Made by a program: the position numbers and the translations under genes
NCBI RefSeq assembly: GCF_019443425.1
Contig: NZ_CP080382.1
Coordinates: 3,162,001-3,226,000, forward strand
DNA from: Arthrobacter sp. PAMC25284
Lineage (GTDB): Bacteria; Actinomycetota; Actinomycetes; Actinomycetales; Micrococcaceae
DNA length: 64,000 bases
Direction of reading: 5' to 3'
Notes under the pieces: generated by a model
Database searches by the model: none
What the model saw: the letters and a program-made list of their open reading frames with translations, nothing else
What the model was told of the DNA's origin: nothing
In this document: positions 1-9,760 of the stretch, piece by piece
Position numbering within the stretch: the first letter of the stretch is position 1
How the letters are laid out: the number at the start of each line of letters is the position of its first letter

Positions 1-2370
1 GGTATCGTCCGCCGGTGTCCGGGCTGCCAGCGCCGCCTCAACGTCGGTGCCGTCCGAGAGCAGCATCCGGGGGATGTGACGGCGGCGCATTTCGAGGGCG
101 TAGGTGTGCCGGCGCTCGGCCACGGCCTCGCGCAGGTCCGCGCCGCGCAGCGCCACCCGGGCCTCGGCCAGGTCGAGGAAAAACACGTCATCGGGTTCGC
201 TGATCCGGCCCGCGGCGGCGAGGTCCTTGCCGACCATTGCGAGTTGGCGCCGGACTTCGGCAAAGCACATGATCAGCGCGAACTTCGGTGATTCACGCAG
301 GCCGGCGGTCTGCCGGGCCTGGCGCAGTCCGTGGGCAACCAGCCGGCCGCGGAGCGTGCCCTTGGTGCGGGCCCGGGCGGAGAGCTCCTTGACCCGCTCC
401 TCGGCGGTGGCTTCTGCGCGGGCAAACTGCCGGTCCGGAGTCTTTTTGGGATCCGTCACGCGCAGGTAGTTGGCCAGGACGTTGAGGATGTGGCTCGGGT
501 CCTCAGCCCAGCGCGGTACGCCGAGGTCGATTTCCGCCACGGCGCGGTGGCCGTAACGGCCCAGAAACGCCGCGATTCCCTGCTGCGCGGCGGCCGGCAG
601 CGAACCGTCGAGGTAGCGGCGGGTCAGTTCCGGCGGCGTGCCGGTCCCGAATTCCTGTGCCGAGTCGGGGTCATCCCGGATCAGGGTGGCGGTCCGCCAG
701 AGCTCCAGGTCCATCTCGGTGGTGACGTTGCCGGGCAAACCCCGCAGCACGGCTTCCAGGTCACCCGGTTTGGCCAGCCCGTCCAGGAGCCAGCGCGCAA
801 TCCCGAGCCATGCGTAGCCGGCAGCCGGCGGTGGAAGCTGCATCATGAGGCCGGGAAGGATGTCCTTGCCGAGGACTCGTTCCACGAAGTCCAGGCGCTT
901 GGTGGCGCTGGCGGGTTCTTCCAGCACCAGCGCCCGCCGGAACTTTTCCTCCGCCCGCCTGAGCCGTTCCAGGGCAGCGTCCGGCCGGATCATGGCCGCC
1001 GGCAGATACGGGAGGACCGCGAGTTGCGGCAGGGACTTGAAGACCACCCGCGCGGACAGCCGGTTTCCACCGCTCCTGCCGCGGGCCACGGCGAACCGCG
1101 GATCGGCCATGAGGTATTCCAGAACGTCTACGGAACGGGCATCTGCGAGCTTCATGAGCCGGGGGATGATCCGGCGGCTGCGCTTGGCGCGCAGGAGTTC
1201 GGTGACGTCCACAAAAAGCCGCATGCCGACCACGAGGTAACGGAACGGGACGGGATCACCCGGGCGGTCGACGCCGGCCCGGTAGCTGACAGTCAGGAAC
1301 TCCATGACGGAGCACCCCATCGGCGTCAGGGGGCGGGTCAAGCCCTGCATCAGGCTGCCGTTCATGTAGGAGCGGGTGCCGCCGCTGAGGTTTTCCCCCA
1401 GAGCCGCGTCCGGGACGGGGTAGAGGGTGGTGATGGGGCGGGACTGGAGGGCCAGGACCTGTCCGTCCGCATCGATGGACCATTCCAGGTCCTGGGGCCG
1501 GCCGAGGGCCTGTTCGGCCCGCTCGCCCAGCGCTGCCAGTTCACGGAGCTGGCCGTCCGTCAGGCACAGGCTGCGGCCCGGCGCGGGGTCTGTTGCGGTG
1601 CCCGCGGTGCCCGCGGTGCCCGCGGTGCCCGCGGTGCGCTCAAGGATGGTGCCGCTGGCGGTGTCGAGCACAAAATGGTCCGGGTTGATGGCACCGCTGA
1701 CAACAGCGTCGCCCAGGCCCGGGGCGGCGTCGATCACGGCTTCCCTGCGCCGGCCGGTGAGCGGGTTGGCGGTAAAGAGCACACCGGAAATATCCGCCTC
1801 CACCATCCGTTGGACAATGACGGCGATGCCCGCAGTTTGCTGCTCGACGCCGTGCTCGTGCCGGTAGGCCACGGCCCGGCGTGTCCACAACGAGGCCCAG
1901 CAGCGCCTGACCGCATCGAGGACGGCGTCCGCGCCGGTCACGTTGAGGTACGTGTCCTGCTGGCCGGCGAAGCTCGCCTCGGGCAGGTCTTCGGCCGTCG
2001 CGGAGGACCGCACGGCCACCGGGACGTCCCGTCCGTCGCCGCCGCCCAACCGGGCGTAGGCGAAGCGGATGGCAGTGGCGAGATCCTCCGGGACGGGGAC
2101 GGCGGCAATACTCTCACGGGTCCGGTCCGCGAAGGCGCCGGGATCCCCGCCGGAGGTGCCCGCCAGCTGTGCGGCTTCGGCCGCCGCCGCGATCCGATGA
2201 TAAGCCGCCGTTGTGATGCAAAAACCGGGCGGCACGGGCAGGCCTGCGGCGATCAGACCGCCCAGCCCCGCGGCCTTGCCGCCAATCAGGGGGATCAGGT
2301 CCGGCCCGGCATCGGCCAGATCGATCACACTGCTGTCTTCGCGCTTGCTCCGCCTGGTTGAACCGTGCAC
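1..2370 (-). CDS. PEP synthase / rifampicin phosphotransferase-like enzyme (partial, C-terminus beyond window)
   Basis: The gene runs off the left edge after 790 codons. The N-terminal ~330 residues form a pyruvate phosphate dikinase-type ATP-grasp domain: an IGGKAAGLG glycine loop, LPVPPGF, AVRSSATAEDLPEASFAGQ and, near residue 310, LQSRPITTLYP are all readable. In the family this domain uses ATP to phosphorylate a mobile His domain. The next ~450 residues (SYMNGSLMQGLTRPLTP onward) resemble the substrate domain of rifampicin phosphotransferases; the His domain would lie outside the window. PEP synthase is the alternative. Start: GTG at 2370, because an in-frame TGA lies just upstream of 2400 and GGGGCG precedes it; GTG at 2328 is possible. 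A (Thr-Ala-Gly)n tract from a 9-bp tandem repeat sits near residue 250. Confidence 0.8.
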   Translation of the reverse strand, partial: MHGSTRRSKREDSSVIDLADAGPDLIPLIGGKAAGLGGLIAAGLPVPPGFCITTAAYHRIAAAAEAAQLAGTSGGDPGAFADRTRESIAAVPVPEDLATAIRFAYARLGGGDGRDVPVAVRSSATAEDLPEASFAGQQDTYLNVTGADAVLDAVRRCWASLWTRRAVAYRHEHGVEQQTAGIAVIVQRMVEADISGVLFTANPLTGRRREAVIDAAPGLGDAVVSGAINPDHFVLDTASGTILERTAGTAGTAGTAGTATDPAPGRSLCLTDGQLRELAALGERAEQALGRPQDLEWSIDADGQVLALQSRPITTLYPVPDAALGENLSGGTRSYMNGSLMQGLTRPLTPMGCSVMEFLTVSYRAGVDRPGDPVPFRYLVVGMRLFVDVTELLRAKRSRRIIPRLMKLADARSVDVLEYLMADPRFAVARGRSGGNRLSARVVFKSLPQLAVLPYLPAAMIRPDAALERLRRAEEKFRRALVLEEPASATKRLDFVERVLGKDILPGLMMQLPPPAAGYAWLGIARWLLDGLAKPGDLEAVLRGLPGNVTTEMDLELWRTATLIRDDPDSAQEFGTGTPPELTRRYLDGSLPAAAQQGIAAFLGRYGHRAVAEIDLGVPRWAEDPSHILNVLANYLRVTDPKKTPDRQFARAEATAEERVKELSARARTKGTLRGRLVAHGLRQARQTAGLRESPKFALIMCFAEVRRQLAMVGKDLAAAGRISEPDDVFFLDLAEARVALRGADLREAVAERRHTYALEMRRRHIPRMLLSDGTDVEAALAARTPADDT
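1595..1637. repeat. 9-bp in-frame tandem repeat (about 4.5 units)
   Basis: Unit GCGGTGCCC on the plus strand, read on the minus strand as repeated Thr-Ala-Gly inside the PEP-synthase-like gene. It lies in a probable linker, is a multiple of three and could vary in copy number without breaking the frame. Confidence 0.85.
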
Positions 2371-2493: not shown

Positions 2494-2528
2494 AAATGGC
2501 CGGAATGACGTCCTCATTCCGGCCATTT
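2494..2528 (-). terminator. Strong hairpin terminator after the M50 protease gene
   Basis: A perfect 15-bp inverted repeat, AAATGGCCGGAATGA / TCATTCCGGCCATTT, with a 5-nt loop. It lies 38 bp beyond the stop of the protease gene and upstream of the PEP-synthase-like gene. A and T runs flank the GC-rich stem, so it could terminate in either direction. Confidence 0.8.
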
Positions 2529-2565: not shown

Positions 2566-5007
2566 CTATGGCGCGGGCGGGGCGGTGCCCGTTGCCGAAC
2601 CCGTGGCCGGGGCGGTGCCCGTGGGGGTTGGTGTCGGCCCGGCCGGTTGCGTGGTGGGAGCGGGCTGGCTCGGGGCCGGGGTCGCCGTTGTGGCTGGGGC
2701 AGGACTGTTCGACGCCGTTCCTCCACTTGTGGGGGCGGGCTGGGTAGCCCCGGGCGATGCCGTGCCGCCCGGAGTCGGGCTCCCGCTGGTGGCGGGCTGC
2801 GTCGCCGGCTTGGTTGCCGTGCCGGTGCCGCTGACGGGAGTGGCGCTGGGATCGGTCTTGATGATCTCCTTGATCTGGTCCTGGAACGCGGCCAGGCGTC
2901 CCTGGATCTCGGAGAGCGGCACGTTTTGCAGGTTCCGGCCGTAGTCCGCGATTTCCTGCCACAGCGCGCTGAGCTTGCCCATGCTGTCCGCGCCGAGCGG
3001 ACCGTCCAGGGTGAGGACCAGTTGGCTCGCCAGGGCGTAGGTCAGGCAGCGGACGCAGTCGTAGTTCGCCGCAGTCGAGAGGTTCTGCGGCACGATCACG
3101 TTCGTCTGGCCCACGATCAGCACCACCTGGAAACCGACGGCCACCGCGGCGCAGTCGGTGCAGTTCGCGTAGGCGTAAGCCTCGTTCTTGGTGTCCACGG
3201 GCTGCCCGTCATCGGCCCAGACAAGGGCGAACGCGACGTCGTAGATGGTGGTGCCATCGGTGGTGTTGACGGCCAGGGCCTGGCTGTCGCCCTCTTCGGC
3301 GGCGGCGGGTTTATCGAAGGGGAATACCCACGACGGCGCCGCGGTGCCTGCGGTGCCGGATCCGGCGTCGCGCGGGACCAGGACCATGCTCAGCTGAGGA
3401 TCGTCGCGGGTGGGTTTCGTGGCGCCGGCCGGCCACAGGGCGACCGTCCGTCCGGGCCGGCCCTCCTGGATCCGGCCCGCGGAGGAGTACGGGAAGAACG
3501 CGGTGGTGGCGTCGGAAAGTGTCCCGCGTTCGTAGGACTGGACCGGGCGGTAGGTTTCGGCCGCCGGCCACCAGGCCCAGGCGAGACCGGCCACAACGGC
3601 TGCCACCGCGGCGAGGGCGGTGCCGCGCTGGACGGCCTTCCCCTGGGTTTTCTGCCAGAGCGCGGTGAGCAGTTGCCGGCCGAGCCGGATCAGGATGTAG
3701 AAGATGCCCAGGACGGGAAGCGCGATCGCGATGATAGCCAGGACCCGGACGGCGGCGTCGAGGACGTCGCCGTTGGCGAGGCTGCCGTTGAACTGGGCGT
3801 ACTGCTTTTGCGTGCCCGACCAGGCGGTGCCCAGAAGCCGCGGCAGGGAGAGCACCATCATGACCAGGCTGAAAATGAGCAGCGGCACGGTCACCAGCAC
3901 CCAGGCGGTCACCGCGGTCCGGGCCCAAGGCTTCAGGACCTGCGCCGCAGGGTCGGCCGGGCGCCACGGCAGCAGGGACAGCAGGGTCGGTTTGATGCGC
4001 TGGAAGAGGTCCGGGACACCGGTCGCGTCGGCGAGGATGTGGTAGCCGTCAAAGCGCACCAGGGGCAGCAGCTGACGGACCATCTGAATGAGCTGGGTGA
4101 CCACTACCAGGAGCAGGGCGTCGAAACCGGTGGCCCACCAGATGCCCATGATCGCCACAGCCACTATGGCGTTGAAGTACAGTCCGCCGAGATCGGTCCG
4201 GATCCGGCCGCCCCGGCCCAGACGGTAGGAATCGGTGACGTCGGTGTAGAACGCGGGCCAGATCAGGTAGAGGCCCGCGCCCATGGCCCCGGGCGTGGCA
4301 CCGCCGCGGCGGGCCGCTGCCGCGTGGCCGAATTCGTGGAACCCTGCGGACAGGACGGTGACTGCCACCACCAGCAGGACGAGCGCCGGGTTGGCGAACG
4401 CCTCGTGCGTGGCGGAGGCCAGGCCCTTGACCATCAGCACCCACCAGCAGATGGCAAGGAACGCCGCGGTGACAGCGACGACGATCAACGGGTTGAAGAG
4501 GACGGCGAAGGGTGCCGTGAGCTTGCGGGTGCGTTCCGGGTCCGTCACCGAATACCGGAAGCGCATGCCCAGCAGCGGGTTGGCTTTCTTGACCTCGGGC
4601 TGGGACCCGTCCGCCAGTTGCAACAGGCCCAGCGGCAGCAGTTGGGAGTCGATCAGGGTCCGCACGTTGTCCGCGCTGACGAGCCGTCCCGAGCCGGTGC
4701 TTGCCCGCTCGGCGATGTCCTCCAGGCTGCGCTGGCCATCAATGGCGTCGAGGATCAGGTACAGCAGCGTGGTGAGCTGCAGGGTCTGTCCGTCGGCGCG
4801 CCGCACGAGCGATGGCGCCTCGCGGTAGCCCGAGCCCTTGGCTTCGCCGAGCAGCTGGACGCCGTCCGCGCGGACGGGGACGTCCGGCGGCTGAATGGTA
4901 CCGGCGACGGCGAAGCCGGAGGGGGCCGGCGCGCTTCCGGATGCGGCGGCGGGGGCAGCGGCCAGCGGGCCGTCCGTGGAGGACGGCCCGCCGTGGGGGG
5001 TGCTCAT
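2566..5007 (-). CDS. PqqD-like / M50 membrane zinc metalloprotease with cysteine-containing external domain
   Basis: 813 aa. Residues ~55-135 fit a PqqD-like winged helix (DAIDGQRSLEDIAERA, then a VRTLIDSQLLPLGLL helix), the fold that binds peptide leaders in RiPP systems. Residues ~170-460 hold several membrane helices with the M50 zinc motif HEFGH near residue 222 and a likely third ligand in VRFDGYHILAD near 320. Residues ~480-700 form a predicted external domain with two Cys pairs (NCTDC and YDCVRC), followed by a Pro/Thr/Gly/Ala-rich tail of ~80 residues. M50 proteases cut substrates in or near the membrane; related peptide zinc metalloproteases act in peptide export. The gene starts 7 bp after the repeat-protein stop, so the two are co-transcribed and that protein is the obvious candidate substrate. 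Protease call firm; substrate inferred. Confidence 0.85.
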   Translation of the reverse strand: MSTPHGGPSSTDGPLAAAPAAASGSAPAPSGFAVAGTIQPPDVPVRADGVQLLGEAKGSGYREAPSLVRRADGQTLQLTTLLYLILDAIDGQRSLEDIAERASTGSGRLVSADNVRTLIDSQLLPLGLLQLADGSQPEVKKANPLLGMRFRYSVTDPERTRKLTAPFAVLFNPLIVVAVTAAFLAICWWVLMVKGLASATHEAFANPALVLLVVAVTVLSAGFHEFGHAAAARRGGATPGAMGAGLYLIWPAFYTDVTDSYRLGRGGRIRTDLGGLYFNAIVAVAIMGIWWATGFDALLLVVVTQLIQMVRQLLPLVRFDGYHILADATGVPDLFQRIKPTLLSLLPWRPADPAAQVLKPWARTAVTAWVLVTVPLLIFSLVMMVLSLPRLLGTAWSGTQKQYAQFNGSLANGDVLDAAVRVLAIIAIALPVLGIFYILIRLGRQLLTALWQKTQGKAVQRGTALAAVAAVVAGLAWAWWPAAETYRPVQSYERGTLSDATTAFFPYSSAGRIQEGRPGRTVALWPAGATKPTRDDPQLSMVLVPRDAGSGTAGTAAPSWVFPFDKPAAAEEGDSQALAVNTTDGTTIYDVAFALVWADDGQPVDTKNEAYAYANCTDCAAVAVGFQVVLIVGQTNVIVPQNLSTAANYDCVRCLTYALASQLVLTLDGPLGADSMGKLSALWQEIADYGRNLQNVPLSEIQGRLAAFQDQIKEIIKTDPSATPVSGTGTATKPATQPATSGSPTPGGTASPGATQPAPTSGGTASNSPAPATTATPAPSQPAPTTQPAGPTPTPTGTAPATGSATGTAPPAP

Positions 5008-5014
5008 CGGTTGG

Positions 5015-5764
5015 CTACTGCTTCAGATCGGACTGCTGGTCGGCCGTGGCCGTAGCTTCGCCCTCGATGTTCTGGTTAATGATGGCGTCCTGCTGGGAGA
5101 CGGCGAACGCGTTGCTGTCGATCGAGCCGATGTTGGCGGCGACGGCGGCGTCGATCGGGGCGGCGACGTTGGCGTTGGCGGCCACGGCTCCGTTGATCGG
5201 GGCGGCGATGTCGGCCTGCGCGGCGAGATCGACGTTGACGTTGAGCAGGTTGCCGTTGACCGCGCCGGCAGCGTCGGTGAGTCCGCCGTCGGTGGGCAGG
5301 GCGCCGAGGTCCGGGGCGGTGCCGTCGGGCAGGAGTCCGCCGGTGCCGGCGCCGGCTGTGGTGCCCGCGGCACCGTCAACCGAGCCTGCATCCGCTGTGC
5401 CGGTACCGGCAGTGTCAGCGGTTCCGGCCGGGGCGCTGGCGGCCTGGTCGAGGGTGCTGTCCTGCGTGGATTCCGCGGTGGCGTCGGCCGTGATGCCCTG
5501 GTTGATGATGACGCCCTGGTCCGAGAGTGCCTGGGCCTCGGAACCGAAGGAAAGGATGTTGGCCGAGGCGGCGGCGTCGATCGGTGCGGCAACGTTCGCG
5601 TTGGCCGCGACGGCGAGATCAATCGGGGCAGCGGCGTTGATGCCGAGGTCCAGGTCGGCGTTCAGGTCCAGGACCGAGGCGACTTCCTTGTCCGGGAGGG
5701 CCGTGCCTTCCTGTGCCAGCAGTTCCTCATCGCTCAATGGGGTCATTCCGGGCTCAACGCTCAT
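5015..5764 (-). CDS. Duplicated AAPIDAA-module protein with leader-like N-terminus (candidate M50 substrate)
   Basis: 249 aa, not recognised as a named family. The first ~30 residues are acidic (MTPLSDEELLAQEG) and resemble RiPP leader segments of the LSDEEL type. Two homologous ~65-residue modules follow, near residues 35-105 and 175-245; both carry AVAANANVAAPIDAA-like stretches and end in IINQ and DATAEST- or EATATAD-like text. A Gly/Ala/Thr/Asp-rich linker separates them. There is no Cys, classic signal peptide or clear membrane helix. Start ATG 5764 is chosen for a GGAG six bases upstream; GTG at 5785 or ATG at 5776 would add 7 or 4 residues. It lies directly upstream of the M50 protease gene. 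It may be a peptide precursor, a secreted wall-associated protein or a protease partner. Confidence 0.75.
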   Translation of the reverse strand: MSVEPGMTPLSDEELLAQEGTALPDKEVASVLDLNADLDLGINAAAPIDLAVAANANVAAPIDAAASANILSFGSEAQALSDQGVIINQGITADATAESTQDSTLDQAASAPAGTADTAGTGTADAGSVDGAAGTTAGAGTGGLLPDGTAPDLGALPTDGGLTDAAGAVNGNLLNVNVDLAAQADIAAPINGAVAANANVAAPIDAAVAANIGSIDSNAFAVSQQDAIINQNIEGEATATADQQSDLKQ

Positions 5765-5850
5765 AGCAAACTCCATTTCCGGCACCTACGTGCCTGTTGC
5801 TGTTCCTCGACGCCCGGGCCCCAGCGGACCGGTTCCACGTCGCAGTGCCA

Positions 5851-9257: not shown

Positions 9258-9436
9258 CTGTTCCTCAAGTCCGGGGGGTTTGCCGCAATTCTACCAATCG
9301 GCGCTTCCATGCCCGGTGCTGTTCTTTCCCGGCAGTTCCGACGTCGACGGCGGGTCACAATGTTGCCTGCGTCACATTCATTCCCTATGTTGGTTAATGG
9401 CCGCAGCGTCGCGGCCACGCGCGATAGGGGTAGCAC

Positions 9437-9760
9437 GTGCACGAAAAGCTCAAGGTTCTTGTCCGGCTCGACCTTGACGGCGGCGAGGCGGAAGTGGCCG
9501 CGCACGGTCATGTGACTGAGCAAAGTGTTCAGGCCCTGTATGTGGTGATGAAGCGGGCCAATCACTTGCGCGAAGGGCTGCGGCTGGTCGTGGATGTCAG
9601 CCACGCACGTGTGGAGCGGGCTGCACTGGAACAGTTGCAGGCCTGTTCAGAATCCCGCCATCTGCCTGCCTCCATTGATCCCCTGCAGTCCGACTGCCAG
9701 CTCCGGGTCCTGGCTCCCGCCGCCGCTCCGCAGACAAGGGCCCTGCGGCTCGCGGCCTGA
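9437..9760 (+). CDS. Small STAS-like protein of unknown function
   Basis: 107 aa from a GTG preceded by AGGGG. The layout VRLDLDGGEAEVAAHG / ALYVVMKRANHL / RLVVDVSHARV resembles the beta-strand/helix order of STAS (anti-sigma antagonist-like) domains, but the usual phosphorylatable Ser motif is not seen. It is divergent from the LCP gene. The family call is an inference from pattern only. Confidence 0.55.
   Translation: MHEKLKVLVRLDLDGGEAEVAAHGHVTEQSVQALYVVMKRANHLREGLRLVVDVSHARVERAALEQLQACSESRHLPASIDPLQSDCQLRVLAPAAAPQTRALRLAA

Follow-up and report, generated by a model that had tools for sequence, protein, structure and literature searches.

A stretch of 64,000 nucleotides from Arthrobacter sp. 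PAMC25284 (contig NZ_CP080382.1, positions 3,162,001 to 3,226,000), hereafter the window, carries on its minus strand two adjacent genes that encode a repeat protein, substrate-like in character, and a membrane protease. The repeat protein gene (5018..5764, 249 residues, stop codon at 5015-5017) was delimited from its open reading frame, its homologues and two alignments, A1 and A4. Its frame is open to 5785 (5015-5785), and the start was taken as the ATG at 5764, which has GGAG ahead of it. The protease gene (2566..5007, stop codon included, 813 residues) was assigned from its open reading frame, NCBIfam matches and a structure model. It lies 3' of the repeat protein gene across a gap of 7 bp (5008-5014), and searches of the genome, a single contig of 3.88 Mb, found each gene once. 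An earlier note, made from the DNA sequence alone, had proposed this closely spaced pair (2566..5764) as an undescribed peptide-processing unit; both reading frames are present, its observation was confirmed and its interpretation is partly supported. All the features of the window that are given with coordinates below lie on the same strand.

The protease was described in the earlier note as a PqqD-like N-terminal domain joined to an M50 HEFGH protease and to an external domain with two Cys pairs, and each of these elements was located. Residues 41-135 (4603..4887) constitute a RiPP recognition element (RRE; RiPP, ribosomally synthesised and post-translationally modified peptide). The structure model of this segment has the beta3-alpha3 winged-helix fold related to PqqD, its strands and helices follow the order of PqqD and of other RREs (TbiB1, TruD), and a structural match was found. 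At the sequence level, the Pfam PqqD profile matches the RRE segments of 13 of 33 relatives at E <=1 (best 4.9e-4), and gives no match at E 1 with the window protease's own segment. The M50 part has the two signatures of a site-2 protease within membrane helices, the zinc-protease motif HEFGH at residues 224-228 (4324..4338) and a downstream DG at residues 320-321 (4045..4050). H224, E225, H228, D320 and G321 are all invariant among 54 sequences; the active-site histidine, numbered 222 in the earlier note, is His224. The structural neighbours of this part are SpoIVFB and mjS2P, the top-ranked M50 neighbour being the SpoIVFB:pro-sigmaK complex, while Pfam Peptidase_M50 reaches E 0.46 only. The domain predicted to be external covers residues 537-720 of the structure model (2848..3399) and contains CxxC repeats; the four cysteines of its two pairs, C616/C619 (3151..3162) and C651/C654 (3046..3057), are invariant in the same 54 sequences. 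It is followed by a low-complexity tail rich in Pro, Thr, Ser and Ala (residues 725-813, 2569..2835), where the predicted local distance difference test score (pLDDT) is below 50. Foldseek gave no match at E <0.001 with the whole protease model, and no relative of convincing similarity came out of sequence-profile searches of the PDB. A second structural aligner separated the domains; matches to residues 41-133 and 379-477 took up its list, which was uninformative on the CxxC domain.

The repeat protein begins with an acidic leader, MSVEPGMTPLSDEELLAQEGTALPDKEV, in which the motif ELLAQEGTALPDKEV (residues 14-28, 5681..5725) is conserved in A4 and across families. L23, P24, K26, E27 and V28 are invariant in the 49 sequences of A4, all of which, the window's excepted, were picked by the pattern LP.[KR]E. 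Two repeat modules follow, as had been noticed earlier: residues 33-107 (5444..5668) and 175-249 (5018..5242) share 43 identities over 75 ungapped positions (57%, E 3e-08). The linker between them (residues 108-174, 5243..5443) is variable, with gapped columns in A1. Past residue 32 the core is 26% Ala, with 27 acidic residues and a single basic one, and Cys, His, Trp, Tyr and Arg are absent from the protein. Its structure model, at pLDDT 55 of too low a quality for a structural search, hints at a helix in the leader (12-18) and two similar sets of strands. There are 3545 relatives at E <=0.001, and no known domain was found in the window protein or in the seven short substrates scanned. Some homologues bear the database label "peptidoglycan-binding protein", for which the window protein has no supporting domain. 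A peptidoglycan-binding or LPXTG wall protein was considered under this name and rejected: no Pfam or NCBIfam match was obtained at E 1, the LP motif is N-terminal and the C-terminus is hydrophilic. In the Nocardioides-type substrates of 428-488 residues (L112, L115, L118, L129, L131), an extra tandem repeat resembling VVDSAGNVIGxLD is inserted between the modules.

The protease and the repeat protein are not chance neighbours. A survey took in 39 genomes, 25 from the genus, that of the window among them, and 14 from the order. Sixteen of these encode the repeat protein, and the protease adjoins it every time. Within the genus both genes occur in 16 genomes and neither in nine, three of which show distant M50 matches only (E 3.5e-12 to 4.0e-11). 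A protease profile gave at least 349 confirmed loci. Among the best 80 of them, which were named, a leader-bearing gene stands immediately upstream of the protease in 78, the long-type substrates measuring 200 to 488 residues and containing repeats; the two misses are contig ends, where merely 717 and 259 bases precede the protease core. The two outcomes that the earlier note named as refuting, a missing structural match to PqqD and homologues of the two genes occurring apart, were both looked for, and neither was obtained. Protease cores merely 42-47% identical to that of the window also occur within the genus (G013:C38, G015:C4, G044:C1), those of G013 and G015 being second copies.

The system extends past the class. 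Of 197 genomes from the class, 48 contain the protease core at E 1e-8, representing 27 of 90 genera; 36 genomes score better than 1e-16 and the other 12 hold distant homologues only. At 1e-30, 18 of 198 genomes across the phylum carry the core, 13 of them outside the class. All 17 distant loci with sufficient upstream sequence (an eighteenth, L151, at a contig edge, was left out of the count) carry the leader motif in short genes, up to three and at least one per locus, and the 34 such frames compare with 0.84 predicted from the rest of the same loci, from which the pattern itself was drawn. Outside the class, leader-bearing genes adjoin the protease in 14 of 15 further loci from 13 genomes, judged partly by eye: nine have the first leader pattern, three a looser one, L195 has LE/LQ replacing LP, and in L190 the gene is on the opposite strand. 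No leader-bearing gene was found at the remaining locus, L194. Leaderless frames with core-like Asn/Ser/Gln repeats were seen upstream of the protease in L194 (-505 to -250) and L195 (-1356 to -1158), positions being relative to the core.

The substrates behind these leaders differ greatly, from Ala/Asn repeats and Ser/Asn/Gln repeats to Gly/His-rich and hydrophobic cores. The leader motif, roughly ELxxE-x4-LPx(K/R), is nevertheless kept across the distant families while the cores change. Among 24 distant leaders, hand-picked with near-duplicates skipped and with positions counted around the LP.[KR] used for their selection, 20 have E at -9, 21 have L at -8 and 17 have E at -5. The long family has the same residues at these positions in 76, 74 and 62 of 78 leaders, and the figures are unchanged when EL is outside the selection pattern. 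A conserved leader combined with variable cores is what is expected of RRE-dependent precursors. In one distant locus, L144, the RRE-M50 frame continues into an ATPase (VVVMSRKGGVGKTT), presumably ParA/MinD-like, as a single frame of 791 residues (core at 9455, oriented); the corresponding frame of L145 (core at 9291, oriented) is 86% identical to it.

No widely conserved enzyme is linked to the long-type pair, in agreement with the earlier remark that standard RiPP enzymes are missing alongside. Open reading frames of at least 110 residues were compared in the flanks of 19 loci, as far as 10 kb either way, the window included and mostly from different genera (E 1e-12, low complexity masked). 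No widely recurring third gene was found among them; of the two other families that recur, one was seen in four loci and the second in three. Crude motif scans of the 80 named flanks recovered an ABC-ATPase pattern in five and the usual form of the radical-SAM motif (C...C.[FYWH]C) in four, the bare C...C..C being present in 19.

The pair has a close known counterpart in the daptides, to which the fusion of an RRE and a site-2 protease next to short leader-bearing frames was the entry point. According to the accessible text of their description (PMC10036551), daptide clusters place a fusion of an RRE and a site-2 protease (MpaP/DapP) beside short leader-bearing reading frames with the motif ELExMEAP; MpaP is described as an RRE-dependent intramembrane peptidase, and ABC transporters, an aminotransferase, a dehydrogenase and a methyltransferase complete the clusters. 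The present pair shares with them the N-terminal RRE and site-2 protease, the adjoining leader-bearing frames and the acidic EL-type leader (PMC10036551, same portion). The NCBIfam model daptide_HExxH (NF041824) matches residues 63-339 of the window protease at 8.8e-29; the score, 100.8 bits, falls far short of the cut-off of 300, and membership of that family was rejected. Daptides are short peptides with an invariant C-terminal Thr, whereas the long-type substrates are of protein size, and Q is the last residue both of the window substrate and of the A4 consensus. The CxxC domain is an addition of the present family. No oxidative decarboxylase, aminotransferase or methyltransferase was found among the three neighbouring genes scanned, nor any widely conserved third gene in the 19 loci, the rest of the genome being unsearched.

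A second counterpart is EpeP, an M50 membrane protease that processes its precursor and, in the portions of the reports available, is thought also to export the product (PMC10885120, PMC12871923), even if its deletion did not abolish production (PMC10885120). The model RiPP_HExxH_LiaK (NF058609) of the EpeP/YydH/LiaK proteases matches the window protease at 3.7e-9. Its 36.6 bits fall well short of the cut-off of 225, and membership was again rejected; the matched part is residues 179-330, with the RRE outside it. The epe operon, as far as it is described there, includes a modifying epimerase (PMC12871923), in contrast to the present pair with no widely conserved enzyme beside it. The fold is similar in PqqD, TbiB1, TruD and other RREs; here, the RRE is fused to a protease, in a cassette where no cognate modifying enzyme was found. 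Secreted repeat proteins of the curli type offer another likeness, with alternating repeats rich in Asn, Gln, Ser and Ala and a second protein bearing weakly similar repeats. They differ in that the window substrate and six short ones have no Pfam match and a signal peptide is not apparent in the sequence. A literature search, with sparse coverage of subscription papers and preprints, found no description of an RRE-M50 protease paired with a leader-bearing repeat protein. The RRE-M50 fusion as such is not undescribed, being known from daptides (PMC10036551, in the part available), which corrects the earlier note; the present systems are an enzyme-poor and widespread branch with protein-sized repeat substrates.

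The CxxC domain behaves as a detachable part. In 11 of 18 distant loci a frame of its own, downstream of that of the protease, encodes it, with E from 2.6e-38 to 4.3e-11 (the profile was built partly from three of the 11, and start codons were fixed for part of them only). It was not found at 0.001 in the other seven (L143, L146-L150, L156). Among the 15 loci outside the class, some of them incomplete, the domain is fused in L188 and L191 and separate in L190 and L193. The N-terminus of three separate CxxC proteins (L140, L153, L154) resembles, by eye, a Sec signal. Because the domain is separate in relatives and begins in these three with Sec-like sequences, it is taken as a detachable partner that probably acts outside the cell. 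There is also a weak resemblance between its repeats and the core of the substrate. When 25 short cores were made into a profile, without the differing substrates of L143, L146-L150 and L156, it aligned with the CxxC domain at 63.8% (score 28.2, against a maximum of 13.7 in 60 column shuffles), and the best-domain score of HMMER exceeds all 100 shuffles in 52 of 56 regions (exceptions L134, L138, L105 and L079), although these shuffles do not preserve the alternating pattern. Short cores and long modules appear related (95.3%, score 43.4, without shuffle control). The direct comparison of long modules with the CxxC domain is weak, at 3.6% and a score of 18.7 where shuffles reached as much as 16.0, and was not counted as support. 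This resemblance is a lead rather than a result. In L009 a second copy of the CxxC domain (480-1337, plus strand) lies upstream of the substrate gene without an RRE or M50 core. In L151-L154 a further common gene, lipoprotein-like by eye, follows the CxxC gene about 2.1-3.2 kb past the core start.

Taken as a whole, the two genes probably form a minimal RiPP-like maturation cassette, carried by many soil actinobacteria, in which the RRE binds the leader, the M50 centre cuts and the repeat protein is released outside. The architecture and co-occurrence fit the definition of a RiPP as a leader-bearing precursor served by an RRE-dependent enzyme, processing being predicted only. Strand addition is the mode of leader binding in other RRE complexes. 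The repeat protein would be synthesised with its acidic leader, which the cytosolic RRE of the protease would bind, presumably in this manner; the M50 centre would then remove the leader at the membrane, and an unmodified, acidic protein rich in Ala, Asn and Gln would be released outside. There it may be received, scaffolded or nucleated by the CxxC domain, which many relatives encode as a separate protein. Leader recognition by the RRE has good computational support in the fold, the co-occurrence and the conservation of the leader, and cleavage by the M50 centre can be inferred from the intact catalytic residues and the precedent of MpaP, within what is available of PMC10036551. Export by the protease itself is speculative, with a single partial precedent in EpeP (PMC10885120, PMC12871923, each available in part), and so is assembly of the repeat protein on the CxxC domain. 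The broader picture, a widespread route of export and surface assembly in Actinomycetota where an RRE-guided site-2 protease would cut and pass out unmodified repeat proteins, and the repeat-like CxxC domain on its outer face, or a secreted partner, would nucleate an amyloid-like or solenoid material, is doubtful at present.

Of the alternatives, trimming restricted to the cytosolic side, followed by transport through another machine (Sec, ESX-type or a distant ABC exporter) or by retention of the protein inside, is unlikely. To our knowledge, M50 proteases are not generally known to export, which counts in its favour. So does the encoding of separate ABC transporters in daptide clusters, in the accessible text of PMC10036551; but no widely conserved exporter adjoins the pair, and the CxxC domain, fused to the protease or beside it and probably external, ties the pathway to the outside. 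Less probable still would be a true RiPP, whose repeat core is modified by enzymes with genes in other parts of the genome while the RRE protease merely removes the leader. The logic of RRE, leader and protease is that of RiPPs, multiple tandem precursors occur in distant loci, and daptides use the same fused protease (PMC10036551, in its available portion). Against this stand the lack of a widely recurring third gene of 110 residues or more in the 19 loci, the rarity of radical-SAM and ABC-ATPase motifs in the flanks, crude as these patterns are, and the five residue types absent from the window substrate. Regulated intramembrane proteolysis, with the small protein as a signalling or regulatory factor freed by the M50 enzyme as pro-sigmaK is by SpoIVFB, is suggested by the rank of that complex among the structural neighbours but is highly improbable, no known domain having been found in the window substrate or the seven short ones scanned, and cores of very different kinds being preceded by one leader.

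RREs are mainly regarded as handles for peptide-modifying enzymes. In the cassette favoured here, which occurs in many genera, the handle belongs to a lone protease whose substrates are repeat proteins, and no enzyme is widely conserved beside it. If this is correct, leader recognition is separable from modification, and the function of RRE-proteases can be studied in a simple system of two genes. It would also raise the question of whether M50 proteases export their own products, and give a testable role to a large family of repeat proteins partly named "peptidoglycan-binding protein" without support. Compared with the earlier note, the reach past the class, the leader common to very different cores and the CxxC domain as a detachable third component are new.

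In the surroundings of the pair, the three nearby genes scanned encode a PPDK_N-domain protein, an S9 prolyl oligopeptidase and a LytR-CpsA-Psr protein, none of them a RiPP enzyme, and a sigma-70 scan of the locus found no promoter. A strong hairpin lies 3' of the protease gene (2494..2528). It is absent from the list of a consensus terminator scan and is therefore regarded only as a possible terminator; the 66-nt stretch folds at -34.9 kcal/mol, where its shuffles average -16.0 (z -6.8).
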